64,000 nucleotides of DNA. Origin: Paenibacillus sp. FSL R5-0517. Lineage in GTDB: Bacteria > Bacillota > Bacilli > Paenibacillales > Paenibacillaceae. How positions within the stretch are numbered: the first letter of the stretch is position 1; each line of letters opens with the position of its first letter. Location: NCBI RefSeq assembly GCF_037974355.1, contig NZ_CP150235.1:1178001-1242000 (forward strand), given 5' to 3'. Below are positions 5,239-38,066 of the stretch, piece after piece. The position numbers and the translations under genes are program-made. The notes below the pieces were generated by a model. The model was not told where the DNA came from and made no database searches. It worked only from the letters and a program-made list of their open reading frames with translations.

Positions 5239-5435
5239 TCTAACGAACTTGAGAGTCCTTATTTGGTAACATGAGGCGTCACTGGCATTCTAACGAATCG
5301 TAGTGACGCTATTTGTTGAGTCTAACCTGAATTAACCCTCTTGGAGCGGAAATATAGTTAAATAGCGACACTGAGGTTCGTTAGATTTTAGAATTCCGTC
5401 AAAATGGCTGAATAAGATCTGTCAGATTCGTTAGC
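5239..5435. repeat. Four-module palindromic intergenic repeat, copy 1
   Basis: Four related 26-base units begin with (T/G)CTAACGAA and end with CTTATT or GCTATT plus one base. Two are direct (5239-5264, 5289-5314) and two inverted (5360-5385, 5410-5435). Unit starts are spaced 50, 71 and 50 bases. The inner pair matches as an inverted repeat at 22 of 26 positions. The same architecture and spacing recur at 19312-19508. Confidence 0.85.
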
Positions 5436-5620
5436 CGCGTTAAGGGGGAAGGGTATCACGTGAAATTCCCAATACATAAGCGCACGAGGCAATGAGCCGA
5501 GAAGCCCACGATCCCAAGAGCGTCAGCCCCTGAGATTCATAAGTAACAAGTCACTTTAGCGTCATGAGTGAATTGGTACCGTATAAGTCAAAGTATTCCG
5601 ATGTTCCTCTGCTCAACTAA

Positions 5621-5673
5621 AAAAAACCGAAACCAGGTTGCCCTGAATCAGGCAATGTTGGTTTCGGTTTTTT
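5621..5673 (-). terminator. Terminator of the secreted multidomain protein gene
   Basis: A 15-base inverted repeat, AAAAAACCGAAACCA (5621-5635) with TGGTTTCGGTTTTTT (5659-5673), has A/T runs on both sides, so it could work in both directions. It lies about 40 bases beyond the stop of the minus-strand gene. Confidence 0.85.
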
Positions 5674-5710
5674 AGTAGCTTGGTTAAAAGTCAGGCTTCT
5701 TTATTAAGAC

Positions 5711-8515
5711 CTAGCTAGCCAAAGGCAACGCTTTGGTTACTTGAACTGTAATTGTCTCTGTGCTGGTTACGCCTGCGGCGTTGATCAGCTCAGCGCGGTA
5801 CGTGTATGTTCCGTTAGCACGACCGGACAATTCCGTAACCGCACTTTGAGAAGCGGGTGTAGCGGCTTTCAATGCTTGTGTATCAATCAATACATCATTC
5901 TCATAGAGACGGTATTCGGTAGCGTTCGTACCCCACCAGAGGTTCATAGATACGCTGTAGTTGCCATCACCATCCCAGTTGTTTTGGGACAATGTTGCTT
6001 TGTCTGGAGTGGCATTGGTTACTTGTACTGTCAGTACCTCACTGCGTGTTGTGCCTTTGTCATTGGTCAGCTCGGCAACGTAAGTATACGTGCCATTCGT
6101 TTTGCCAGTAATGGCGGTTTTAGCAAACTGTGAAGAAGGTGTAGCCGCAGTCAACTTCTGCGTATCAATGAGAACGCCGTTCTCATACAGTTTGTATTCA
6201 GAACCATTTTCGCCCCACCAGAGGTTCATGCTTACGTTATACGCACCTTCGAACAGGCCAGTCGTATATCCATTATCAGAAGAAAGCACCGGTTTACCCG
6301 GCGCTTCTGCAGCTGGAGTGGAAGGCTGTTCGCCTCCACCTTGATCCTCAGCAGGTACAAAATCATTCAAGCTTCTAGGTTTCAATTGATATACGTCTTT
6401 GAAAATAGCAGAAACGCCTGTGATATCAATTTTGTCCCCAGCAGTATAAGGGAAGGAAGTATCTGTCACACCTGTACGGGTGTCTACACGGATGTGTGTA
6501 GTTGCTCCGTCCGCAGCCACTGCGTCAAATTCGAAAGATCCAGCCGGTGTAGCACTGATGATATTCTCAATCGTTACATCTTTCAATTGAACCAGTTGAC
6601 CCTGGTTCGCATCTGTAATGGCTGTAACTTCAATTGGAGCAGGTACGGAAGCCGTACCTGTTTTCTCAATCGCAACGATGTCGGTAAGCTCGAACTCGCT
6701 GTTATAGATGGTTGTTGCTGCCGTTACTTTCACCGTGTCACCTGCATGAAAGCCACTTGTGTGTTGGAAGACATAAATTCCGGCAGTTTCATCTTGAAGA
6801 TAAAAGGCTTGTCCACCGAATGCACCTGGTTCTGTCGTTACAACACCTTCGATGGTTACGGTCGTACCGACAGCTTTGGTGCGTGCTTCAGCAACGGTAA
6901 TCGCTGCTGGAATCGGTCCTTCTTCTTCCGGAAGCTGTTCAGCTGGCACATTGCCAACAGTCACGGCATTGGTAATCAGGTTACTGCCGTTCAGACGGAG
7001 ACGCAGGCTTGCAGCGCCAGTTGTACCCGGTTTGATACGTACATTCAGATCTTTGATCCCGCGACCTTGGCTATCCGAGGTTACACTGAATGTGGAGCTG
7101 TAACCGTACGATGTCGGCCAACTACCACTTTCATTCTGAATCATGGCTACCTGTGTTCCGCCAGTCAGATAGATACCAGCACTATAACCGGATACGGTTG
7201 TGTTTGGAGCCATGTTCTCCACAACGACACGAATCTGGAAGTCTTCTGCATTCGGAAGCGTATCCTGTTTCACGAAGCTGTAAGAAGCATTTGCGCTGGA
7301 TGCAGGGCCGCCGTAAGAACCAGCCTTGAACGTGGAACGATCGTACCACTTGTATCCGGCAGCAGGTGCGGCCCAAGGTTCAGCCTGTGGTTCTGTAGAA
7401 GCAGCCGGCTCTTCGAATGGCAACAGCGCTGTAGCTGTATCCAGTTCAAGTCCGTTTACTTGAGTGAAGTCCGTGTAGTTCTCTTGTGTAGCAAGCCAGT
7501 TCACCGTGTTCACGAGCAATACGGCATCATCGACTTCTTTGAATCCGTCATAGGTTGTTTTGCGTGTGCCCGTCTCTTCACGCAAGTATTTAGGCGATGC
7601 ATCTTCTACTGGAGAGGAGTCACCGATGAAGGCAGCCTTACCTGCTCCAAGCTTGGATACGGCTACGTAAGGACCTTCTTCGATCCCGCCGCCGTTGTAT
7701 ACGCCTTGGTCCACCGCGTTGTTCCATTTTGCGTTGGTTTTTGGCAGGTACACAATGCCTTTTGCCTTTTCCGGATCAGTGATTGCGAGGGTTGAGCCGG
7801 CATGCATGGCTACAGCCGACACACCTTCTGTGATGCCGAAGGCTTGATCTGCCGGTACAATGATATTGGCATTGATATCGCCAAGTGCGTTATAGCGGAA
7901 TCGTACGCCAAAATTATCGGACAACCAGTCCGAGCTGGTGATGTTTTGCATGGCTTCAGAATTACGCTCATCTGTGCTCATGCCTTTGGCTGGATCTTCG
8001 AATGCTCCACGACGATAGCCGTTGATAACTTCAGAGCCATCCCAGCGGTTTTTATTACGGTCTGCATTATAGTGATCTCCAACGAAGAAGATGCTGCCGC
8101 CTGTTTCAACATATTGTTTGAGTGCTGCCTGTTCGGATGTTTTGAAAGGAATTTGAGGCTCTGCAATAACGAATACGTTATACTCTTTCAGATCATCATA
8201 GGTAAATGGAGTCGTCTTGCGAAGTTCTTTGACATAATAACCATCATTCGCGAGTGCATTCCCGAAGTCAGAGAAACCTCCATCGATGACCCAGTCTGCT
8301 GCTCCAGCCGTCTGGCCGTGTGAGTTGTCGAACAATACTTTCTTGCCTGCATTTTGGTTCACAACCTTCGCTTGGATGAATGGTGCCGGGTCTGTCGGTC
8401 CTTCCGCATGAACCGATGCATCTCCGTTCCATAATCCGATCTGAAGCGGCAAAGCCATGGACAATGCGAGGAGTGATTTTAGAAATACTCCGCGCATACC
8501 TGTTAATTTACCCAA
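5711..8515 (-). CDS. Secreted multidomain protein: GATase/ThuA-like domain, OB-fold modules, two C-terminal Fn3-like modules
   Basis: 934 residues. The TTG start at 8515 is supported by GGGAGGGA 7 bases upstream. An export signal ends near VHAEG (about residue 38). Residues about 58-365 form an alpha/beta domain (KKVLFDNSHGQ, VFVIAEPQIPF, GGSIFFVGDHYNADRN) resembling the DUF4350/ThuA glutamine-amidotransferase-like fold. Residues about 545-735 resemble YhcR-type OB folds (TVTIEGVVTTEPG, FYLQDETAGIYVFQ). The C-terminus carries two related modules of about 95 residues with the SMNLWWG..YKLYENGVLIDTQ pattern seen in chitinase and glucanase accessory domains. No recognised hydrolase active site is visible; polysaccharide or cell-wall binding is inferred. 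It lies behind the ECF sigma gene on the same strand. Confidence 0.7.
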   Translation of the reverse strand: MGKLTGMRGVFLKSLLALSMALPLQIGLWNGDASVHAEGPTDPAPFIQAKVVNQNAGKKVLFDNSHGQTAGAADWVIDGGFSDFGNALANDGYYVKELRKTTPFTYDDLKEYNVFVIAEPQIPFKTSEQAALKQYVETGGSIFFVGDHYNADRNKNRWDGSEVINGYRRGAFEDPAKGMSTDERNSEAMQNITSSDWLSDNFGVRFRYNALGDINANIIVPADQAFGITEGVSAVAMHAGSTLAITDPEKAKGIVYLPKTNAKWNNAVDQGVYNGGGIEEGPYVAVSKLGAGKAAFIGDSSPVEDASPKYLREETGTRKTTYDGFKEVDDAVLLVNTVNWLATQENYTDFTQVNGLELDTATALLPFEEPAASTEPQAEPWAAPAAGYKWYDRSTFKAGSYGGPASSANASYSFVKQDTLPNAEDFQIRVVVENMAPNTTVSGYSAGIYLTGGTQVAMIQNESGSWPTSYGYSSTFSVTSDSQGRGIKDLNVRIKPGTTGAASLRLRLNGSNLITNAVTVGNVPAEQLPEEEGPIPAAITVAEARTKAVGTTVTIEGVVTTEPGAFGGQAFYLQDETAGIYVFQHTSGFHAGDTVKVTAATTIYNSEFELTDIVAIEKTGTASVPAPIEVTAITDANQGQLVQLKDVTIENIISATPAGSFEFDAVAADGATTHIRVDTRTGVTDTSFPYTAGDKIDITGVSAIFKDVYQLKPRSLNDFVPAEDQGGGEQPSTPAAEAPGKPVLSSDNGYTTGLFEGAYNVSMNLWWGENGSEYKLYENGVLIDTQKLTAATPSSQFAKTAITGKTNGTYTYVAELTNDKGTTRSEVLTVQVTNATPDKATLSQNNWDGDGNYSVSMNLWWGTNATEYRLYENDVLIDTQALKAATPASQSAVTELSGRANGTYTYRAELINAAGVTSTETITVQVTKALPLAS

Positions 8516-8701
8516 CCAAATCCCTCCCAGATATTAGTTAATTCATGAGTTCGTCCATATTCTACCACATGAAAATCTCACATAGTCATAACAATTTGTA
8601 AAAATTAACTCGATATTTGTAAAATTGGGTCTTTTGACATATCCATAGGTATTTCGGTCCTGTCTTAACACTCCCATCCGGCGTCACTGTTGATTTTGCA
8701 T

Positions 8702-8727
8702 AAAAAAAGCCATCTCTATGAGATGAC
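8702..8727 (-). terminator. Terminator overlapping the end of the ECF sigma gene
   Basis: GCCATCTC (8709-8716) pairs with GAGATGAC (8720-8727) with one G.T wobble, and on the minus strand it is followed by a seven-T run. The hairpin includes the sigma-factor stop codon (8716-8718), an unusually tight arrangement. Confidence 0.8.
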
Positions 8728-9192
8728 TTTGGCCCGAATTCGATTGACGGCATGGAAGACAGAAGACTTAATCATGCCTTCACTGCGATTCACCAGCTCT
8801 GCTGTTTCCTTGATGGAGTATCCGTGGATGAGGCGAAGTTCTAATATTTTTCGGTGTTCCGTGTTGTTGATATGGGAGACAAGATCATGAACGCCTTCAT
8901 TAATTTCAAGTTGGGGTGTATCGAGGTGATGGGTAGGTACCTCCAGACGGCTGTCACGTTTAAGTGTACGGGTTCGCCTGCGGAAACTGTCCATGGCAAG
9001 GTTTCGGGCAATCCGTTTGAGATAATAGAGGAGTCGATCTTCAGGGATATCTACGGTCACATTCATCAGTCGAATGAAGCAATCCTGAGCCAGATCTTCT
9101 GCGTCTTGTGGCTGTTTGACGATATGGGATAGATACCGTGTGATTTCTGATTTATAGTTGACATAAGCATCGTTGATTTGTGCATTGTTCAT
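8716..9192 (-). CDS. ECF-type RNA polymerase sigma factor
   Basis: 158 residues with the sigma-70 region 2 pattern (YLSHIVKQPQDAEDLAQDCFIRLM, then YYLKRIARNLAMDSFRRR) and a region 4 helix-turn-helix (LRLIHGYSIKETAELVNRSEGMIKSSVFHAVNRIR). No anti-sigma gene follows; the next gene on the strand encodes the secreted multidomain protein, but a terminator intervenes. It diverges from the response-regulator operon. The regulon and inducing signal are unknown. Confidence 0.92.
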   Translation of the reverse strand: MNNAQINDAYVNYKSEITRYLSHIVKQPQDAEDLAQDCFIRLMNVTVDIPEDRLLYYLKRIARNLAMDSFRRRTRTLKRDSRLEVPTHHLDTPQLEINEGVHDLVSHINNTEHRKILELRLIHGYSIKETAELVNRSEGMIKSSVFHAVNRIRAKVIS

Positions 9193-9292
9193 ATGATGTG
9201 AATCCCCCTTGGATACAGATCAGGCTTGGGTCCGGTCTGGTATGAGTCTCTTATGATCCAAGTATATCGGGAGGTTGTTTCCAAACGGTTCA

Positions 9293-9316
9293 GAGTTGTA
9301 TCGAAGTTGTAACATT
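9293..9316. promoter_or_regulatory. Candidate response-regulator operator upstream of the two-component operon
   Basis: GAGTTGTATC-GAA-GTTGTAACATT holds two AGTTGTA half-sites 11 bases apart (9294, 9305), the helical phasing usual for OmpR/PhoB proteins. Nearly the same sequence occurs in reverse orientation at 12832-12854 in front of the ABC operon, which supports autoregulation plus control of the exporter. Confidence 0.6.
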
Positions 9317-9403
9317 TCGTGCTTCCCTCTATTCAAGCACAAGGCTTGGGATACAAAATATAGGCAGATGAAATTCATAGAGCAGGGAGATTACGAGGGT
9401 ATC

Positions 9404-10117
9404 ATGAGACCAAAAGAGATTTTAATTATTGAGGACGAGGAGTCCATTCGAGATATTTTGTCCTATTCGTTACGCAAGGAAGGATTTGAGATCAAGGAAG
9501 CAGCTACGGGTAAAGAGGGGTTGAATCTGCTTCGGGATTCGAAGCCGGATCTGATCCTGCTGGATCTGATGCTGCCGGATATGAGCGGTTTTGATGTGTG
9601 TCGGCAACTGTCTGTGAACTCCAAGATACCCGTCATCATGATCACTGCGAAGTCTGACATGCTGGACAAGGTACTTGGCATGGAGCTTGGGGCGGATGAT
9701 TATATCACGAAACCTTTTGATATCCGTGAGGTGGTTGCGCGCATTCGGGCGATCTTTCGCCGGATTGATCTCATCAGCGAGACACTGGAGAATCAGTCCT
9801 ATGAGGTGGTCAGGCTTGGCAAGCATATTGAGATTCGCAAGGATGAACGGGAAGTGTGGAAAGACGGGGAACGCGCAGGACTCACCAATAAGGAATATGA
9901 CCTGTTGTTATTTCTCGTGACCCATCATCGTAAGGTACATACACGTTCTGAACTGCTGGACAAGGTATGGGGATTTGATTTTGCAGGAGATACCCGAACG
10001 GTGGATATTCATATACAACGGATTCGCAAGAAATTGGATAGTGGTGTGCAGGGCATTTCGATGATAGAGACTGTATTTGGTGTAGGGTATAAGCTGAATA
10101 TTCAGGTGCAGACATGA
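9404..10117 (+). CDS. OmpR/PhoB-family response regulator
   Basis: 237 residues from the ATG at 9404. The receiver domain has acidic residues E10/D11, phospho-acceptor D54 (LILLDLMLP) and the MITAKSD lysine; the C-terminal winged helix has TNKEYDLLLFL and VDIHIQRIRKKL. I prefer 9404 because the protein then starts MRPKEILIIEDE; GAGGG is close and AGGGAGA somewhat far, and an ATG at 9368 remains possible. The longer reading from 9275 has no support. It overlaps the kinase by ATGA and probably regulates itself and the ABC operon at 12949. Confidence 0.92.
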   Translation: MRPKEILIIEDEESIRDILSYSLRKEGFEIKEAATGKEGLNLLRDSKPDLILLDLMLPDMSGFDVCRQLSVNSKIPVIMITAKSDMLDKVLGMELGADDYITKPFDIREVVARIRAIFRRIDLISETLENQSYEVVRLGKHIEIRKDEREVWKDGERAGLTNKEYDLLLFLVTHHRKVHTRSELLDKVWGFDFAGDTRTVDIHIQRIRKKLDSGVQGISMIETVFGVGYKLNIQVQT

Positions 10118-11580
10118 AGTGGACCATCCAGTTCAAAATGGTGGTGCTCTTCTCGGTCATCGTCTTTATCGGATTCTCCGTTCTGCTGATTCTGTCCAAT
10201 AAGGTGGCACAGGAGAATATGTACCGGGAAGTGCATGAGGACATGGTGCAATCGAAGAAAAATCTGGATATCGCGCTGAATCAGTACTTCCTGATTCATA
10301 ACAAACGCATGAGCAGAGACTCGCTCGAAGCAGGAAGCCGCGAGCTTGCGGAGCAGATTGGTTCAGCCGTTGGGGGAAAAATTACCGTATATCGCCCTGA
10401 TGCTTCACCATACGGATCTACTGGCAGTGAAGCTAATGTCGCTATGCGGTCTGACCATCCTGATGTGAAGGCGGCCATACAATCCAAGATCGCGTATACC
10501 ACAGTTGTGGATAAAGGTCGGGTCACCTCCAGTCTGTCCTTTCCGCTTCAGATGGATCAACAATTGATCGGAATTGTGCAGATGGAGAAGGATTACACGG
10601 ATTTGTTCAAACGCAACCTGCGTTTTCAAAATACGATCAAACTGTTCGCGGCGGTGATTTTCGTATTTGTATTTATCGCCTCCATCTTTATTTCCCGGAA
10701 AATCACCCAACCTATCCGTGTACTCACGAAACGTTCTGCGGAAGTGGCTCAGGGGAGTTTGAATGCAGACATTCAGATAACCACTAAGGATGAGATTGGT
10801 GAACTGGCTTCAAGCTTCACCATCATGATTGATCGTGTGCGGGAGCAGATTGATGTGATTGAGCGAGAACGGGACGAAGTGAATCAAGTACAGGCGCGAA
10901 GCAAAGTCTTTTTTGACAATGTGACACATGAACTGAAGACACCACTAACGACCATTCTGGGATACGCCCAGATTTTGCGGGATAACGGATTTACCGATCA
11001 GGATTTTTTTGACAAAGGCATGAATTATATTATCAAGGAAAGCCAGCGTCTCAACACGATGGTTGCGGATATCCTGGAGGTCTCGGTCTCCTCTGCGGTC
11101 ATTCAGGCGTACCGATTCGAACGTATCGATGTATCGGATGTTATTCGTGAAGCTTGTGAAGACATGTCGATTAAGGCGGGCAAGTACAATATAGGCATTC
11201 ACTATGAGCTGGAGGAACATCAGTATCTACAGGGAGATCGGGACAAGCTGAAGGAGGTATTCCTCAACGTTCTGGATAATTCGGTTAAATATAGTGATGT
11301 CAATTCAATCATTGAAGTACAATCCTTCCGGTTAGGTGAGACCATCGCTATTGTGATTCGTGATCAGGGGGAAGGAATCGGAGCTGAAGCACTCCAGCAT
11401 GTATTTGAACCCTTTTACCAGGATAAAGGAATCAACAGGGTGGAGAAGGGCAGCGCAGGACTGGGCTTGTCTATTGTGAAGAACATCGTGGAGCGTCATG
11501 GAGGAACAGTGGAGATGAAGAGCATCATGCGGCAAGGGACACAAGTAAATATCAGTCTTCCGGGGGAAATGAACGCATGA
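10114..11580 (+). CDS. Membrane sensor histidine kinase
   Basis: 488 residues. Topology is helix 1 (about 9-27), an extracellular sensor segment (about 30-165), helix 2 (about 172-192), HAMP ([20 protein letters not shown]), the DHp domain with phospho-acceptor H272 in [15 protein letters not shown], and an ATPase domain with [24 protein letters not shown] and [10 protein letters not shown]. It starts and stops with 4-base overlaps (10114 and 11577), forming a coupled operon with the regulator and a membrane-anchored protein. The signal is unknown. Confidence 0.93.
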
Positions 11581-12746
11581 GACATCCAGGATTCTGGCGA
11601 AAGCACCGTGACAAATTGATGTTGTCAGGGCTGTTAATCGCATTTGTCAGTGGAATTTTCGGAATCGGCAGTCTGTTCAGTATGGGGAATCTCAAACCAA
11701 GAACGGTGATTATGCCAAGCGAGCAATTCAACAGCCGTCTGGCGCCGCCGCCCAGCAGTACGATTCAAGTCGAGTCGGCAACAAAGATTCCGAATGACTT
11801 CGCAATCTATGATTTTGAAGTGGTAGACCGAAATACAATTATATTAAATCAACCGGAACCTTCCTATTCAGGGCTGCGGCTGTCTCTCCTGCATCTGGAT
11901 GATAATGAAGTGAAAAATATTGCAACGAATACGGATTACGGTGTAGTCATCAGCCCGGATCACAAGAAGTTGATATACTCCCAATATCGGGCGGGTCAAG
12001 CGCAGAAGACGACGTATGAGTATATGATTCAGAGCGGGGAACGTCGCAAACTTTCGAACGATAACTCGTATTACAGAGTGTTTACAGGGAATGAATCCTA
12101 CATCGGTCAGGATGATCTCTTATTCAAACAAGTCGATCTAAAGCAGGAAACGAGTCAGACCATCTACACGCATGATGAGCTGATGGGCATGTTTGCTGGA
12201 ACAGGACAAGGACGAGAAAAAGGATCGAGTGATACATTTATCGTTATGGATGTCTTTGAGGTCAGTGAAGATCTGAAGCAGTTCTATATGCTGGTGATGT
12301 TGAAAGAAAACTATGCCATATATCGTGTGTCGCTTGAGGATGCGCATGAAGTGAAGGCATATGCGGCAATGGAAGAGATTCAACAGTACAAGTTACTGAA
12401 GAACGGGGACATGCTCATCCAGGGAACGATCAATAAGGTGCAGGGATTATATCGGTATCGTGCAGAACAGAAGCAATATGAACTGGTCCTGAAAGGGTCC
12501 ATCTGGAGCTTCGAACTGGATGCAGATCAATCGCGAATTGCTTATTTTTTGCCAATGGATAATCAGAATCAGAAGAATGAATTGCATATTGCCTATCTGA
12601 ATGACAGCAAGCTTTCGTCAGATACGGTGATCTACCGTAATATTGATAGCTTCATCAAACTCAGATGGAATGATGACGAACTATTTGCAGTAGGAAGCAC
12701 CATGGATAAAAGTGAAATGTACCGCTTTAGTTTCAGAGCCTGGTAA
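11577..12746 (+). CDS. Membrane-anchored extracytoplasmic protein, possible beta-propeller, co-translated with the kinase
   Basis: 389 residues: a basic N-terminus ([13 protein letters not shown]), one membrane helix (about 14-35, [21 protein letters not shown]), a Pro/Ser linker, and a long outside region of repeated short strands with dividing aromatic and Asp positions ([44 protein letters not shown]). The pattern recalls WD40/TolB-like propellers, but I do not recognise the family. The ATGA overlap with the kinase suggests its product works with it, perhaps as a signal-modulating or cell-wall sensing partner. A terminator follows. Confidence 0.6.
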
Positions 12747-12768
12747 GCTATGGAAGGCATATGAAGAT

Positions 12769-12824
12769 AAGACCTTGGTCTGGATGAGGCTGGCGACAGC
12801 TCCCATGCGGACAAGGTCTTTTTG
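12769..12824 (+). terminator. Terminator of the two-component operon
   Basis: AAGACCTTG (12769-12777) pairs with CAAGGTCTT (12812-12820), followed by a T-run. The long loop holds a further GCTG/CAGC pairing. Confidence 0.75.
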
Positions 12825-12831
12825 TTATGAC

Positions 12832-12886
12832 AATTTACAAATTGGATACAACTCCGGTCAGCCTGGATACATCTCCACTCTATACT
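12832..12886 (+). promoter_or_regulatory. Candidate activator-dependent promoter of the ABC exporter operon
   Basis: A TATACT -10 (12881-12886) has no good -35. In its place are two direct repeats, TGGATACAACTCC (12843-12855) and TGGATACATCTCC (12864-12876), 21 bases apart, which is two helical turns. The reverse complement of 12832-12854 matches the site in front of the response-regulator gene. This fits activation by that regulator. Confidence 0.6.
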
Positions 12887-12948
12887 AAAAGGGAATATGC
12901 TACGCGAATCTATACATACTTGGCAAGTAGAAAGGAAGACATGCAGTA

Positions 12949-13632
12949 ATGCTTCAAGTTGATCAATTATCCCACTCGTTCCGTAATAGCCAGGGAATCG
13001 TACCGGTGCTTCAAGACATCAACCTGACGATTGCAGAAGGCAAGATGGTGGCGCTGCTGGGAAGTTCAGGTTCAGGCAAGTCCACGCTGCTGAATCTGAT
13101 GGCGGGGCTGATGAAGCCGGATCAAGGCAGGATTCTGATTGCGGGACAAGATATTGTTCGTTTCAGTGAGAATCGCCTGGCTGAGTTCAGGCGCAGTCAT
13201 ATCGGATTTATTTTCCAGTCGTATGAGCTGCTGTCCAATCTCACGATTCGGGAAAATGTAGAGTTACCGTTGGTGTTCATGGGGATCAGCCCTTCGAAGC
13301 GCAAAGCAAAAGCATTGAAACTATTGGATCAGGTTGGACTAAGTGAAAAAGCAAACTTGTTCCCGTCCCAGTTGTCGGGCGGTCAACAACAACGTGTCAG
13401 TATTGCACGCTCACTCATTACCGAACCCTCGGTGATCTTCGCAGATGAGCCTACCGGGAATCTGGATACCGAGACAGAGGAAGAGATTATTGCAATTTTG
13501 CAGCAGCTTAACCGGGAGCTGAATACCACCTTTGTTATTGTGACACATGAAGCAGAAGTCGCGGAACAGATGCAGGTTGTACTTACATTGCAACATGGAA
13601 TATTGGTTGAAGAGGCTGTAAGGGAAGTTTGA
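12949..13632 (+). CDS. ABC transporter ATP-binding protein, MacB/LolD class
   Basis: 227 residues. Walker A is GSSGSGKST, the Q-loop region is IGFIFQSYELL, the signature is [15 protein letters not shown], Walker B is VIFADEPTGNLDT, and the H-loop is VTHEAEVAEQM. The SYELLSNLTIRENVELPL segment is characteristic of the LolD/MacB/YknY group that energises FtsX-fold permeases. AAAGGAAG precedes the ATG. It is the first gene of an ATPase-permease-adaptor operon, like B. subtilis yknXYZ-type systems, and probably exports or protects against an envelope-active compound. Confidence 0.93.
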   Translation: MLQVDQLSHSFRNSQGIVPVLQDINLTIAEGKMVALLGSSGSGKSTLLNLMAGLMKPDQGRILIAGQDIVRFSENRLAEFRRSHIGFIFQSYELLSNLTIRENVELPLVFMGISPSKRKAKALKLLDQVGLSEKANLFPSQLSGGQQQRVSIARSLITEPSVIFADEPTGNLDTETEEEIIAILQQLNRELNTTFVIVTHEAEVAEQMQVVLTLQHGILVEEAVREV

Positions 13633-13650
13633 GGCAAAAGGAGAGGAAAT

Positions 13651-15021
13651 GTGAGAATACGGGATGTAGCACGTATGGCCTGGGGACAGATCATTCGCAG
13701 GAAAATGGTCACGCTGCTGTGCATGATGGGGTTGTCCATCGGTTCTGCCGCCATGATCATTGCACTTAGCGTGGGGCAGTCCGTACAGGCCTATAGCGAG
13801 AAAACATTGAACGACAATTACAAGATGGATGAGATCACAATTACGCCCAATGAAGGCATACGTACGGGGAACGGCAAGGGGGGCGGTCAGAGCTCGACAT
13901 TTGAACGCGGTGCGCTGACGCTGGAGAAGATTCAGATTATTCAGAGAATTCCCCATGTGGTTGCTGTGGCACCCATGTTAAAGCTGGATTCGTTGGAGAT
14001 GGTGCTTCCGGATGGTCGCAGTACATACGTTGAAGTTATTGGCACGGAACTGCAGACCCTGGGCGGGTTCGGATATAAATATGCCGAGGGACGTGCGGCG
14101 GAGGATGGTCGTATGGCGGTGACCAGCTATGGGGCCGCATTCGGACTTGTAGACCCGAAAGTAACTCAGAAGTTATTCGAGCAGTTGAATGCTGATCCAT
14201 ATAACAATGAGCTCCTGCAGCAGTATACGGAAATGTCATCCAAGCAGGATCAGTTGGTTCAGCAGCGTGTCCAGTTCCGATATGAAGATTATGCGGATGC
14301 GAGTAAAACCAAAATGAGTGGCTCTGTACGTGTATCAGGCGAGCTTACGAAACCTTCCAACATGGATGAGATGAGTGCTCAGGGCGACAAAAAAGTATAT
14401 CTGCCGCTGGACACAGCACGTGCATTGCAGGATGAGCTTGGATTGCAACAGGCGGATAGTAGTGCAGCCAAGCGTCTGAACTCAGCCTTGGTCAAAGTGG
14501 AGGATAAACGCTATGTATCCCAGGTTGAAGAACAGATCCAGAAGCTGACGTTAAATACACAGAGCAATCTCTTCCAGGAGGAAGCAATGGCTGGCCAACT
14601 GGCGATGTATCAACAAGCGGCATTGGGCATCGGTGGTTTTATCATGTTGCTGGCCTCGTTGTCCATTGTTGTAGCGATGATCATGTCTACGCATCAACGG
14701 CGCAAGCAGATTGGTGTAATGAAGGTGCTGGGGGCGAATCTGTGGCAGATCCGCCAGATGTTTATAACGGAAGCAGCGATGCTTGGATTAATGGGCGGCA
14801 TGGCAGGTGTTGGAATTGCCTTTGCTGCCCTCGACGGGGTGAACAGTCTGCTCGCGAGTCAGATGGCAGATCAGGTCAATGGTCCGATGACCGTGGTTAT
14901 TCAGCAGTCCGCTCTGCCGCTCGGCATCGTGTTTGCTGTGCTGGTCGGTGTTGTATCGGGAATATATCCGGCAATTAGCGCATCGCGGACCAACGCATTA
15001 ACTGTGATCAAATCAATGTAA
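13651..15021 (+). CDS. MacB/FtsX-family ABC permease
   Basis: 456 residues, GTG start with AAAGGAGAGG upstream. One helix at about 19-42 is followed by a large extracellular MacB-like domain (about 43-325), then three C-terminal helices: about 328-348 (LGIGGFIMLLASLSIVVAMIM), 375-400 and 417-440. The cytoplasmic QRRKQIGVMKVLGANLWQIRQMF motif after the second helix and the ending IYPAISASRTNALTVIKSM are FtsX-permease hallmarks. Works with the preceding ATPase and following adaptor. Confidence 0.92.
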   Translation: MRIRDVARMAWGQIIRRKMVTLLCMMGLSIGSAAMIIALSVGQSVQAYSEKTLNDNYKMDEITITPNEGIRTGNGKGGGQSSTFERGALTLEKIQIIQRIPHVVAVAPMLKLDSLEMVLPDGRSTYVEVIGTELQTLGGFGYKYAEGRAAEDGRMAVTSYGAAFGLVDPKVTQKLFEQLNADPYNNELLQQYTEMSSKQDQLVQQRVQFRYEDYADASKTKMSGSVRVSGELTKPSNMDEMSAQGDKKVYLPLDTARALQDELGLQQADSSAAKRLNSALVKVEDKRYVSQVEEQIQKLTLNTQSNLFQEEAMAGQLAMYQQAALGIGGFIMLLASLSIVVAMIMSTHQRRKQIGVMKVLGANLWQIRQMFITEAAMLGLMGGMAGVGIAFAALDGVNSLLASQMADQVNGPMTVVIQQSALPLGIVFAVLVGVVSGIYPAISASRTNALTVIKSM

Positions 15022-15049
15022 TTTTATCAGCGAAAGGGAAATTGGGCAC

Positions 15050-16126
15050 ATGAAGAAATGGATTAAAATCATCATCACGGTTGTACTTTTGGCAGGTGTG
15101 GGGTACTGGCTGTATGAAAAGTACAAACCAAAACCGGAGGCACCTGTTGAGATCCCGCCGCCAATTACGTTTGATGTTACACAAGAAACGATGACGCAAA
15201 CGATTCAGGTAAAAGGGAAATCCGTATATACCGATCAGACGGATATCTATGCTCCATATGCTTCGAACATCCAGCAGTGGCATGTGAAAAGTGGTGAGCA
15301 GGTGAGCAAGGGGGATATCCTGTTTACACTCGACACGTCCACGTTACAAACGGAAGTCGAGCAATTGCAGAGCGATCTGGAGAAAGCCCAGCTTGAAAAT
15401 AAGATGAATCAGGTTAGCCTGGATCAGGCGAATATGAGCGAACCGCTTGGCGTGACGGAAGAAGAGCGCAAGAAGGCATTTGCGGACCGGGAAGCCAAAC
15501 GCCTGACGTATGAATTGAATCAAAAAGCACTGGTCCTGAGGGAGAAGGAGATACAGAAAAAGCAGGCCGTGATGAGCAAGTCCACTGTGTATGCTTCCGC
15601 CTCCGGTATATTTCAGATGAATGAAGAGGACAGCAAGACACGTGCAGTGACGGAAGGACAGCTAATCGGGTCCATTACCAATATCAGCAAACTGAAATTC
15701 ATGACGATTGTTGGTGAAGAAGAGATGTTCAGACTTAAGGTGGGTATGCCGGTTAAGGTACGAATGACAGCGCAGAAAGACCTGCAATTCACCGGGAAGG
15801 TAAGCAAGGTGTCCAAGTTCGCCCGGAAGAGTACCGATACCGACCTCAAGCAGGCTTCCCAGTTTGACGTGGTCATTGATCTGAAGCCGGATGCAAGGAT
15901 GTATGGAGGCGTGAGTCTGGAAGGCGATATCGAGACGATGCGTAAGGATAAAGTGACGGTTGTGTCCAGCTTGGCCATCATGCGGGATCAGACCGAACCT
16001 TACGTCCTGTTAGACAAAGGGAACGGACTGACAGAGCCGCTGACCATTAAGGCTGGAATGGAATCGGGGGACAAGACGGAAGTGGTAAGCGGGTTAAAAC
16101 CGGGAGATGTCGTTGTTCTGCCCTAG
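15050..16126 (+). CDS. Membrane-fusion (HlyD/RND-adaptor-like) protein
   Basis: 358 residues with an N-terminal membrane anchor (IKIIITVVLLAGVGYWLY). Then a lipoyl half-motif (ADIYAPYASNIQQWHVKSGEQVSKGDILFTLD-like), a coiled-coil hairpin (about 100-175; LQSDLEKAQLENKMNQVSLDQ), and beta-barrel and membrane-proximal domains (VGMPVKVRM, GMESGDKTEVVSGLKPGDVV). This is the YknX-like adaptor of Gram-positive MacB-type systems. Last gene of the operon; a weak hairpin (GAGGTTCATT with AATGAGCCTC, 16159-16193) follows without a T-run. Confidence 0.9.
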   Translation: MKKWIKIIITVVLLAGVGYWLYEKYKPKPEAPVEIPPPITFDVTQETMTQTIQVKGKSVYTDQTDIYAPYASNIQQWHVKSGEQVSKGDILFTLDTSTLQTEVEQLQSDLEKAQLENKMNQVSLDQANMSEPLGVTEEERKKAFADREAKRLTYELNQKALVLREKEIQKKQAVMSKSTVYASASGIFQMNEEDSKTRAVTEGQLIGSITNISKLKFMTIVGEEEMFRLKVGMPVKVRMTAQKDLQFTGKVSKVSKFARKSTDTDLKQASQFDVVIDLKPDARMYGGVSLEGDIETMRKDKVTVVSSLAIMRDQTEPYVLLDKGNGLTEPLTIKAGMESGDKTEVVSGLKPGDVVVLP

Positions 16127-16651
16127 ACAAACGGGTGAAATTCGACCTTGATCAACACGAGGTTCATTGTGGTATAAGGCCAGAATGAGCCTCTGGTGTG
16201 ATTAGGGGCAAGGGGTGTCCAGATTCCTGCCTGAATTATGGAAAAAAATATAATTAAATTTATTTAATTCAATTTACAGTAATATTTACATGTCGTATAA
16301 TCATACATAAGGAGGTGACACCGAACATCAAGTTTGTAGATGGGCAGGCGATGGCCTTTTTTTAAACCGCTTAAAGAAAGCGCTTACCGAAGCGGAAGAT
16401 TCAAGTATCCTGTAAATCCATCTCCACACTTCTTCATGTCTAACACACAATCACCCACACCCACCACATTATACTCATTCTCATGGTTCGCCCTCACACA
16501 ATTTGTTTGTTCAAGTTTCCAGTTATACAACCATTTCTTATGGAGGTGATACAACCAACTCATCCGAACGTTCTCTTCGTGCTAAGCATCATCATGACAC
16601 AGAGGATCAGACATGAGTACAACCCAATCTAACTAAAGGAAAGGTGGAACT
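16127..16651. other. Promoter and long leader of the GH6 cellulase gene
   Basis: No supported coding sequence. The stretch 16301-16651 would be a leader of roughly 340 bases. It contains GGAGGTGA at 16311, an imperfect hairpin ending in seven T near 16362, a CCGCTT/AAGCGG hairpin (16367-16395) whose loop carries a cre-like AGAAAGCGCTTACC, a C/A-rich unstructured stretch (about 16440-16475), and a second GGAGGTGA at 16542. Neither GGAGGTGA is followed by a usable start. Confidence 0.6.
16273..16301 (+). promoter_or_regulatory. Sigma-A-type promoter of the GH6 cellulase gene
   Basis: TTTACA (16273-16278), 17-base spacer, perfect TATAAT (16296-16301). Transcription from here gives the long leader described separately. 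Confidence 0.75.
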
Positions 16652-19096
16652 ATGAAGACTACATTGAAAACCAGATCAAGAGGTAAGAAGATCCTGCGCA
16701 AAGGAGTAAAGCAAATGTTGGCGGCAACACTGCTGGCGGCGGGGATTTTCCCGGGAATGTCTCCGGGCCTGACTCAGGCGGCTGAAGCACATGTGGATAA
16801 TCCATTTGTAGGGGCAACAGCTTATTTGAATGAGGACTATTCGGCTCTTGTGGATACGTCCATTGCGTTGACCAATGATGCATCGCTGAAGGCACAGATG
16901 GAGACGGTCAAATCGTATCCAACCGCAGTGTGGATTGACCGGATTGCTGCGATCTATGGCGGTACGGACAATGCGGGTCGCAAAAGCGTTGAGGAACATC
17001 TCGATGCTGTTCTTGCCCAAAAGAAACCCGGGACACCAATAACGGCTTCATTCGTTATCTATAACTTGCCAGGTCGGGATTGTCATGCCCTTGCTTCGAA
17101 TGGTGAACTTCCACTAACACAGGCTGCACTACAGACGTATAAAACGGATTATATTGATGTGATTGCAGATATCTTCGCAGATCCGAAGTATCAGGATATT
17201 CGCATTATCGCTGTCATTGAACCGGACAGTCTGCCTAACCTTGTGACCAACCTGAGTACACCAGCTTGTGGTCAAGCCAGCTCAACAGGTATCTATGAGG
17301 CCGGTGTGAAGTATGCATTGGACAAGCTGCACGCGATTCCGAATGTGTACAACTATCTGGATATCGGTCACTCCGGCTGGCTTGGATGGGATAACAACCG
17401 TTCTGCGGCAGTTGCGTTATATACGGACGTAGTTAATGATACTGCGGCAGGTCTGCAGAGTGCAGATGGCTTCATTACGAACACGGCGAATACCACACCG
17501 CTGGGAGAGCCGAACCTGTCCAACCCGGATCTCAATATCGGTGGACAACCGATTAAATCAGCCAAGTTTTATGAGTGGAATCCGTATTTTGACGAAACCG
17601 ATTTCACCGCCGCGCTGTATACCGATTTCGTACAAGCCGGCTGGCCAAGCAGCACAGGTTTCCTGATCGATACTAGCCGGAACGGCTGGGGCGGGGTAGA
17701 CCGTCCAACATCGGCTACGGGCAGCAACATCAACGATTATGTAAATTCCGGACGTGTAGATCGCCGGGAGCATCGAGGGAACTGGTGTAATGCCAGTGGA
17801 GCTGGCATAGGGGAAGTCCCTAAGGCAGCGCCAGGACCAGCGCATCTGGATGCGTATGTCTGGGTGAAACCTCCGGGTGAATCCGATGGCTCCAGTTCCG
17901 AAATTCCGAATAACGAAGGCAAAGGTTTCGACCGGATGTGTGACCCGACCTTCACCACTCGGGATGGTGTACTAACAGGTGCATTGCCCAATGCTCCGGT
18001 ATCGGGTCACTGGTTCCATGATCAATTCGTGGCACTGGTGAAGAACTCATTCCCTGTGCTGCCTGCAAGTAATGGTGGAGGCAATCCTCCGGGAGGTAAT
18101 ACAGCTCCGGCTGCACCCACAACTTTGACGGCTACTGCCGGTAACGCTCAGGTCTCCTTGACGTGGACGGCTTCTGCAGGTGCGACCAGTTATAGCGTGA
18201 AGCGGGGACTGAGCGCATCAGGTCCATTCACAACGATCGCAGCCAATGTGAGTGGAACATCCTACACCAATACTGGCTTGATCAATGGTACAACCTATTA
18301 TTATGTGGTCACGGCAACCAATGCTGTAGGTGAAAGTGTTAATTCTGCCACAGCAATTGCTACACCGGTTGCAGGGGTAACGGCGCCAGCTGCACCGACT
18401 GCGCTCACAGCAACCGCAGGTAATGCACAGGTGAGTCTGACGTGGACTGCCTCTACAGGTGCAGCAAGTTATAATGTGAAACGGGCGCTGAGTGCAGCAG
18501 GTCCGTTCACAACAATCGCGACGAATGTGAGTGGTACGTCATACACCAACACTTCCCTGACGAACGGAACAACGTATCATTATGTGGTAAGTGCAGTGAA
18601 CACAGCAGGGCAAAGTGCCAATTCTGCTGTAGCTTCCGCGACACCTCAAAGTGTCGTTGTACCGACAAGTGATCTTGTCCTGCAATATCGTGCTGGAGAT
18701 ACCAATGCGCTGGACAGCCAGATCAAACCGTATTTCAACATTAAAAATCTGGGCAGTACTGCTGTGAATCTGAGTGATCTGAAGATCCGGTATTACTTCT
18801 CCAAAGAAGGATCGGCTGCAATGGATTCAGCCATTGATTACGCTCAAGTTGGCGGAGCCAATATTCAGCGCACCTTCACAGACTCGTATGTAGAGCTGAG
18901 CTTCACAGCTGGCGCTGGCAGCATTCAGGCTGGTGGACAGACTGGCGATATCCAGCTTCGCATGTACAAAACAGACTGGTCCAACTTTGACGAGACGAAT
19001 GATTACTCCTTCGATCCAACGAAAACATCCTATCAGGATTGGAACAAGGTAACACTCTATCAAGGTGGAAACCTGGTATGGGGCATTGAGCCTTAA
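16652..19096 (+). CDS. Secreted GH6 cellulase (cellobiohydrolase-type) with two Fn3 modules and CBM3
   Basis: 814 residues; start supported by AAAGGTGG. A long export signal ends near QAAEA (about residue 46). Residues about 50-475 are a GH6 catalytic domain: VWIDRIAAIYGG, VIYNLPGRDCHALASNGE, the general-acid segment VIEPDSLPNLV, YLDIGHSGWLGW, and the substrate-lining AYVWVKPPGESDGSS. The insertions around the last motif resemble exo-acting family members, so cellobiohydrolase is more likely than endoglucanase. Two Fn3 modules (about 484-572 and 578-665) are close duplicates, followed by a CBM3 (about 671-814, LVLQYRAGD..IKPYFNIKNLG). It attacks crystalline cellulose outside the cell. Confidence 0.93.
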   Translation: MKTTLKTRSRGKKILRKGVKQMLAATLLAAGIFPGMSPGLTQAAEAHVDNPFVGATAYLNEDYSALVDTSIALTNDASLKAQMETVKSYPTAVWIDRIAAIYGGTDNAGRKSVEEHLDAVLAQKKPGTPITASFVIYNLPGRDCHALASNGELPLTQAALQTYKTDYIDVIADIFADPKYQDIRIIAVIEPDSLPNLVTNLSTPACGQASSTGIYEAGVKYALDKLHAIPNVYNYLDIGHSGWLGWDNNRSAAVALYTDVVNDTAAGLQSADGFITNTANTTPLGEPNLSNPDLNIGGQPIKSAKFYEWNPYFDETDFTAALYTDFVQAGWPSSTGFLIDTSRNGWGGVDRPTSATGSNINDYVNSGRVDRREHRGNWCNASGAGIGEVPKAAPGPAHLDAYVWVKPPGESDGSSSEIPNNEGKGFDRMCDPTFTTRDGVLTGALPNAPVSGHWFHDQFVALVKNSFPVLPASNGGGNPPGGNTAPAAPTTLTATAGNAQVSLTWTASAGATSYSVKRGLSASGPFTTIAANVSGTSYTNTGLINGTTYYYVVTATNAVGESVNSATAIATPVAGVTAPAAPTALTATAGNAQVSLTWTASTGAASYNVKRALSAAGPFTTIATNVSGTSYTNTSLTNGTTYHYVVSAVNTAGQSANSAVASATPQSVVVPTSDLVLQYRAGDTNALDSQIKPYFNIKNLGSTAVNLSDLKIRYYFSKEGSAAMDSAIDYAQVGGANIQRTFTDSYVELSFTAGAGSIQAGGQTGDIQLRMYKTDWSNFDETNDYSFDPTKTSYQDWNKVTLYQGGNLVWGIEP

Positions 19097-19116
19097 ACTT
19101 TATTTGTAACTGTCTT

Positions 19117-19156
19117 AACCGCGATCCTCAGTGTGTTAGAGGATCGCGGTTTTTTG
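19117..19156 (+). terminator. Terminator of the GH6 gene
   Basis: AACCGCGATCCTC (19117-19129) pairs perfectly with GAGGATCGCGGTT (19139-19151), followed by TTTTT. Confidence 0.92.
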
Positions 19157-19262
19157 CTATGCATTACAAGAGTCATTCTAGATTGAAGTTCTCACTTGAA
19201 CAATGTATGTATAATCGCTTGAAGATCCGTAATTAGGGATGTAAGAGCGGGCGTATCAGGCT

Positions 19263-19312
19263 GGGCTGTCCTCTGTTCATGAAAATGAGCAGGGGACAGC
19301 CCTATTTCTTTT
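19263..19312 (+). terminator. Orphan strong hairpin with GAAA loop and T-rich tail
   Basis: Eighteen bases (19263-19280) pair, counting two G.T wobbles, with 19285-19302 around a GAAA tetraloop; TATTTCTTTT follows. The cellulase already has a terminator 110 bases upstream, so this either backs it up or ends a separate short transcript. Confidence 0.65.
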
Positions 19313-19508
19313 CTAACGAACAGAGGACACGCTATTCAGTTGAATTGATGCATTTGATAAATCTAACGAATCGTAGACACGCTATTTAGTTAATTTGGGT
19401 AGATTTTGATCCTCTTAGACTCGTTTTGGTCCAAATAAGGTTACTGAGATTCGTTAGGATTCGTTGTTGCAGTTTCACCACCTAATAGGGTGCGTGGGAT
19501 TCGTTAGA
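19312..19508. repeat. Four-module palindromic intergenic repeat, copy 2
   Basis: Units of 26 bases at 19312-19337 and 19362-19387 (direct) and 19433-19458 and 19483-19508 (inverted) share the CTAACGAA start and (C/G)(C/T)TATT end with copy 1. Spacings are again 50, 71 and 50 bases and total length is again 197. Confidence 0.85.
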
Positions 19509-37503: not shown

Positions 37504-38066
37504 GATGGTTCACTCCTTCTACAAATATGAAAATACACTATACCTGGATGGGGTGCTATACGCTATGTAATCTAACGAATATTTAGTTGGAAATGATTAT
37601 CGTGCAACTTCTATAATTCTTATTTTTACTGTGGTTACGTGACATTCTCTTATGATGCAGTGTGCTTCTTGCATTGTTACAAGTTCTACTTCACTTATAG
37701 GACCCCCAGGTAAGTTACTTCGTAGAATATATCGTTATAAAGTCATATTAATATTAGCTTTTCGTGCAAAAATGGTTCTAAGGTACTGGTTCTGTGGGCG
37801 TGTTTTTCGTTTTCGATCTTTATTATTACGTTTGTTAATGCAAGGTCAGAAGGACTGAAACATGATATAACAAGACGTTGGATTGATGACTAATTTCAAA
37901 ATAAACGGGACTCCCCTTTCATAAAGGGGACCTTTTGGGTTTGTTTGCCATGACCTAAAGAAAACACAAGAGAACGAAAAGACAGTCCATTGTTGCCCTT
38001 ATGCAGGAGCGCTAAGATAAAGTTGTTAAAGCGTTTACATTATGGATTGAAGGGAGCTTAACTCGG
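37504..38066. other. Intergenic region with divergent promoters
   Basis: It separates the chemoreceptor from the polysaccharide operon. Contents: a CTAACGAAT...ATTTAGTT fragment (from 37572) like one unit of the four-module repeat with an internal deletion; a CCCCTTT/AAAGGGG hairpin (37913-37929); and the regulated promoter at 37951-38039. The open frame at 37652-37858 lacks a ribosome site and is not accepted. Confidence 0.55.
37951..38039 (+). promoter_or_regulatory. Promoter module of the polysaccharide operon: activator box, -35/-10, cre-like site
   Basis: In order: a 19-base box TGACCTAAAGAAAACACAA (37951-37969); TTGTTG -35 (37990-37995); 17-base spacer; TAAGAT -10 (38013-38018); and cre-like TTAAAGCGTTTACA (38026-38039), one mismatch from the CcpA consensus, over the expected start. 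The same arrangement occurs at 46468-46554. It fits activation by the local YesN-type regulator and catabolite repression. Confidence 0.65.

Follow-up and report, generated by a model that had tools for sequence, protein, structure and literature searches.

A dispersed four-unit repeat in Paenibacillus and a candidate nuclease/winged-helix partner protein

We describe a dispersed intergenic repeat of Paenibacillus sp. FSL R5-0517, represented by two 197-base elements in a window of 64,000 nucleotides (positions 1,178,001 to 1,242,000 of its complete 6.92-Mb chromosome, here genome G000). Each element comprises four short units, two forward and two inverted, at fixed spacing. This layout recurs around the chromosome and in other genera, its units come in distinct dialects, the elements are linked to a gene for a 217-amino-acid (aa) protein, and the recognition helix of that protein varies in agreement with the dialect. 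We consider it probable that the repeat is a four-site DNA platform, present approximately 65 times in the chromosome, whose units are likely bound by this predicted nuclease/winged-helix protein, and that the pair likely maintains itself much as REPIN-RAYT systems do.

Layout, recurrence and age of the repeat

Element 1 (5239..5435) and element 2 (19312..19508), neither assigned to a strand, each carry four units of approximately 24-26 base pairs (bp) in the dyad order u1+, u2+, u3-, u4-, with spacing of 50/71/50. In element 1, the outer unit u1 (CTAACGAA...TTATT) lies at 5240..5263 (+), the inner units u2 and u3 at 5290..5313 (+) and 5361..5384 (-), and the outer unit u4 at 5411..5434 (-). 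The corresponding units of element 2 lie at 19313..19336 (+), 19363..19386 (+), 19434..19457 (-) and 19484..19507 (-). The initial annotation, which had reported both elements with units starting at 0, 50, 121 and 171 bases, was correct and even understated the case. Within the window, CTAACGAA occurs 10 times against 1.07 expected (the maximum of 100 shuffles being 4), and eight of these occurrences are units of the two elements. A one-unit fragment, also annotated at 37572, is unsupported, since its TATT end is missing (two mismatches) and about one chance CTAACGAA is expected per window.

The exact pattern CTAACGAA-N12-TATT identifies 83 units in the genome, compared with 3 for a control pattern, and the search for further copies with 50/71/50 spacing, set beforehand as the refuting test, found them. 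Among 49 neighbourhoods sampled from this genome, to which the dnaA region was added, freely listed units show the 50/71/50 spacing to within a base. A four-unit scan allowing small deviations recovered 47 elements in 46 of the 49, a few of them with one degenerate unit, and none in neighbourhoods L051, L074 and L082; spacing is exactly 50/71/50 in 34 of the 47. A half-element model, with 79 halves as its input, returned 123 matches genome-wide at an expectation value (E) <= 0.1, corresponding by count to the approximately 65 places, some of them partial. The element centre measures 45 bp in those read, and gaps between convergent genes are favoured (22/47 elements, against 6/47 in divergent gaps, by a heuristic of open reading frame length). 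Element ends are sharp, with the inverted u1 and u4 forming terminal inverted repeats as in a miniature inverted-repeat transposable element.

What is conserved is the units and their spacing, not a hairpin. A structured RNA or cruciform, one reason the annotation had offered for a fixed architecture, gains something from element 1, which folds well alone (z -6.3; element 2, z -2.0). However, mirror covariation for the pairs u1/u4 and u2/u3 is no higher than in shuffles (z 0.3 and 0.5 across the 34 exactly spaced elements), Rfam covariance models give no match in the window at gathering score, and spacing can change by a helical turn. On the negative mirror-pair test an RNA hairpin was rejected, and we find this whole class of explanation hardly credible. 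Between units, the gaps show little sequence conservation but are A/T rich every 10.0 bp, a peak reached by 0 of 2000 permutations. In G036, a genome from another family, half-elements lie 110-111 bases apart rather than 120, which is one helical turn shorter (centre 61 vs 71); the same shortening is seen in the single pair listed for G046 and in the congeners G064 and G065. Phased A/T, a one-turn change in spacing and sharp ends are together the trace expected of protein bound to bent or wrapped DNA, and the DNA may wrap around protein. Selection on architecture through protein binding, also suggested in the annotation, is supported by these features, by the fixed spacing and by the dialect switch described below, which matches the recognition helix.

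The annotation's remaining suggestion, a non-autonomous mobile repeat, holds for part of the population: some elements have been copied in the past, leaving clear duplicates at unrelated sites, whereas other sites have long been occupied and were passed on vertically. Genomes differ widely in copy number and in recent duplicates. One five-copy subfamily in G000 (419477, 503711, 3826303, 4971887 and 5729721) shows similarity reaching approximately 55 bp past the units on both sides. Sites and dialects were surveyed in 27 named loci from the P. amylolyticus/xylanexedens/taichungensis/pabuli group, and units were counted in 75 congeners; we assigned the gene names walH, walI, htrA, rlmH and dnaA from our own reading of the encoded proteins. 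Of the 27 loci, 10 have an element in the walH-walI gap (six A-type, three B-type and one truncated B-type), L162 has a degenerate one there, and the remainder have a different repeat or nothing. The htrA-rlmH gap holds a full, interrupted or degenerate element in 17/23 loci, deletion remnants in five and nothing in one, and is also occupied in G036, from a different family.

Five of the 75 congeners have CTAACGAT rather than CTAACGAA in nearly all their exact units, two orthologous sites included: at the rlmH site (four species) and at walH-walI (three species), 4/4 units have T as the eighth base. The dialects are mutually exclusive, with 107-250 T-type and 2-3 A-type units in these five genomes and at most four T-type units in the other 70. 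This is a dialect switch on the scale of the whole genome. A and B orthologues share 0.50-0.51 identity in their gaps, only modestly more than paralogues do (0.40-0.44), so that descent in place rests partly on shared flanks; unit cores change more slowly than gaps. Separately, G061 carries a lone B-dialect element (G061:C1:338091-338285) alongside 119 units of the A dialect.

Two further observations concern these sites. Another hairpin-like repeat (CAGAATAACC...GGTTATTTCTG) fills the walH-walI gap in species without the element (L149-L151, L154, L156-L158, L166, L167, L169, L170, L174 and L175, near 7.5-8.0 kb). In strain PAMC 26794, the rlmH-site element is broken by a transposase-like gene that we read as IS4/Tn5-like (L153:14700-16600).

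A candidate partner protein

Approximately 40 homologous pairs emerged when proteins encoded near elements were compared between G000 and G036, and from these a candidate partner was picked after the fact: the 217-aa protein, 62% identical between the two genomes. Its gene in G000 (5,927,555-5,928,205) lies outside the window, millions of bases away, between two elements, and the G036 homologue adjoins a triple element. Neither of these two members, the only ones tested, matches a Pfam or NCBIfam family above cut-off, and PHROGs and PADLOC give marginal matches only for the 217-aa protein. Matches to its predicted model include an EDxHD-type domain and winged helices. The predicted architecture is an EDxHD/Vsr-type nuclease domain followed by a winged helix. 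Charged residues of the putative nuclease domain are invariant in 70/70 loci.

Gene and repeat occur together. The gene adjoins elements in the loci read, and 20/20 near-full-length copies from congeners have a unit no more than 0.85 kb away. It is present in 24/42 element-rich congeners and 1/33 element-poor ones (a fragment), and among the 75 congeners those with the gene carry more units than those without, both comparisons ignoring kinship. G018 has merely a 26% relative.

Homologues occur in 150/198 genomes searched in the order, with up to 15 per genome, 15 being the number scored for each. A large protein database holds 959 homologous proteins, and public records call the best 120 of them transcriptional regulators or hypothetical proteins. 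We assembled 60 distinct homologues (from G036 and from congeners, the 30 best matches in the order and 20 further chosen paralogues) and scanned within 700 bp of each for a four-unit dyad scoring > 60, using a scan aware of layout and blind to motif. Such a dyad lies near 43/60. In control windows, nearly all from G036, 22/181 score > 60, and 21 of these 22 carry the G036-type motif, that is, they are elements; among controls from six loci not selected for elements, the figure is 1/44, itself with the G036-type motif. When spacing was left free in windows of the 20 further paralogues, 15/20 exceeded the null, including 12 with an arm of 50-52. New dialects adjoin these homologues, the bases after CG being GAC, GAAC, AAAC, CTTG or GTTG. 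G036, which has five homologues, also contains a four-unit dyad of a different motif (TAGCGATAACG; L235:12300-14350), which may be a second dialect within this genome.

The recognition helix (residues 184-197, taken from the predicted model) agrees with the dialect of the adjoining elements. Fifteen A-type and five B-type proteins show eight fixed differences, five of which fall inside this helix (p 2.6e-5). Among 32 representatives, Arg at residue 186 accompanies G directly after CG in 15/15 cases, Gln accompanies A in 10 cases and T and C in one each, and Tyr at residue 187 goes with AAC in 6/6. Recognition of the element units by the protein appears well supported by sequence comparison, and the winged helix would read the bases after CTAACG.

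Proposed mechanism and rival explanations

We propose that the 217-aa protein likely binds the four 24-bp units, its winged helix reading the bases that follow CTAACG, and that several copies sit on one element and wrap the DNA, as the phased A/T tracts and the one-turn change in the centre suggest. The nuclease domain would cut DNA and so enable copying of the element, new copies would mostly come to lie in gaps flanked by convergent genes, and old copies would be inherited, with selection keeping them matched to the protein. Tentatively, this may represent a new kind of repeat system, in which a large, uncatalogued family of EDxHD-nuclease/winged-helix proteins has one dialect of four-site wrapped platforms per member, with a simple residue-base code (Gln-A and Arg-G at 186, His or Tyr 187 setting the next bases), a polarity of spreading set by the replication fork, and co-evolution of each member with all its copies at once.

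Several observations weigh against this proposal. A nuclease alone cannot join DNA, and inspection by eye of the sequences flanking the 47 elements and the youngest subfamily revealed no target-site duplication. Foldseek returned no match to the 217-aa protein at E <= 0.001, a sequence-profile search of the PDB with it found no nuclease, and E39 and D98, possible acidic residues of an EDxHD site, are conserved in 55/70 and 53/70 loci, with the variation lying in distant paralogues. No gene is detectable in 18/42 element-rich congeners, some of them rich in units (75, 65 and 49); in our reading these genomes may have lost it and their repeats may be slowly decaying. Two near-full-length gene copies contain an in-frame TGA. 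The dyad scan found no element near 17/60 homologues, eight of which are 38-41% paralogues and four are congener copies (L262, L268, L269 and L271). The A and B dialects represent one evolutionary switch. In two Gln-186 paralogues T or C, once each, takes the place of A, and AAC is also found with one His-187 protein. On a tree built without the helix, the Gln/Arg switch provides three supported independent pairs, all concordant (3/3, p 0.25), too few for the sign test to give the code significance.

A different role would be chromosome organisation, with an architectural factor acting as MatP does on matS, the nuclease fold serving for binding only and the elements marking the origin half. 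MatP-matS is itself a system of dispersed chromosomal sites for one protein, and here too there is regional bias in three of the four genomes examined: 54/65 places in G000 lie in the half nearest dnaA, as do 26/28 listed elements in G036 (14/16 clusters, p 0.004; dnaA at 1.544 Mb) and 6/6 listed places in G106, from a partial list of 26 matches. The htrA-rlmH site occupied in two families, the preference for convergent gaps and the A/T phasing would also fit. We nevertheless consider this role unlikely. G179, from another family, shows no origin bias among 97 listed places (Kolmogorov-Smirnov p 0.995), the charged nuclease-domain residues are invariant, and copy number and recent duplicates vary widely. 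Site architecture and predicted protein fold also differ from those of MatP-matS. With bias in three genomes and none in G179, marking the origin region was rejected as a general role.

It is improbable that the repeat is a miniature transposon carrying two direct sites at either end for a DDE transposase akin to those of IS21, Tn7 or Mu, the nuclease being incidental or a TnsA-like helper. TnsA does appear, at rank 33, among the weak Foldseek matches, the others being mostly winged helices, and the end structure of IS21, as given in PMC10122671, is much like u1-u2. However, the copies read contain no DDE gene between half-elements, the adjacent gene tracks the dialect, and the lack of any target-site duplication visible by eye counts against this reading as well. 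An autonomous transposon was likewise rejected: three G036 elements have 1.76 kb between halves, and the insert is a gene that we read as IS110-like, lying at a unit. Very improbable, too, is that the units are operators of a transcriptional regulator, the name many homologues bear in public records and one that the winged helix in the predicted model would suit, since elements favour convergent over divergent gaps both in G000 (22 vs 6 of 47) and in a sample from G179 (18 vs 4 of 39).

The proposed self-maintaining pair of repeat and nuclease/winged-helix protein most resembles REPIN-RAYT. The RAYT protein is a Y1/HUH transposase (Pfam PF01797). The partner here has a different predicted fold, and four 24-bp sites at helical spacing replace two palindromic REPs that form a hairpin; with another protein fold and no conserved hairpin, this is not a RAYT system. 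The likeness lies in a dispersed intergenic population, an inverted layout and a partner gene near its repeats, features that PMC3116915 describes for REPINs as inverted arrangements with each repeat group near a specific gene. Such populations are reported in PMC8049555 to last millions of years. IS21 ends, according to PMC10122671, contain two direct repeats 23 bp apart, each with two conserved blocks approximately 10 bp apart, wrapped on a tetramer. The elements share the two direct sites per end and the two blocks per site, and their wrapping would be a further parallel. They differ in that their ends are just 45 bp apart and the linked protein has another predicted fold; neither istA nor istB lies between the ends in the elements read, so these are not IS21 elements. 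Unlike EDxHD homing endonucleases such as I-Bth0305I, the protein described here has a predicted winged helix at its end and is associated with a dispersed repeat, and it is not an established homing endonuclease.

We recognised no description of the repeat or of the partner protein among the open-licence papers that the searches listed, and the family, widespread in its order, is uncatalogued in Pfam and NCBIfam as judged from the two members tested. If our proposal is right, the pair would be a second, unrelated answer to the problem that REPIN-RAYT solves, namely the long-term upkeep of a matched repeat population in a bacterial chromosome. Natural dialects with visible residue-base agreement would also make protein-DNA co-evolution directly testable.

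Replication polarity and neighbouring features

A further hint at mechanism is that, in G179, the stronger half-element faces against fork movement in 77/97 listed places (p 4e-9; 143 of 150 scored matches, with arrays collapsed). The same measure shows no replication polarity in G000 (p 1.0). Gene direction was rejected as the source, the strong half being independent of gene strand in 17 loci with co-directional flanks (p 0.58). The sample behind this comparison was deliberately stratified (drawn from the 97 loci, with 19 discordant and 20 concordant), and it also supplied the counts of convergent (18/39) and divergent (4/39) gaps given above. G179:C1 additionally contains tandem element arrays with periods near 243 and 302 bp (e.g. 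5322148-5323668 and 2108835-2111026).

A terminator-like hairpin at 19263-19302 of the window lies immediately upstream of element 2, and several other elements likewise follow such hairpins by eye. In G036, four different repeats (L233, L236, L243 and L247) have an element whose protein we read as IS110-like at or within one of their units, with the insertion point at CTAA|CGAA or CTAA|GGAA in L233 and L243. The repeat therefore seems to be an address of the IS110-like element.

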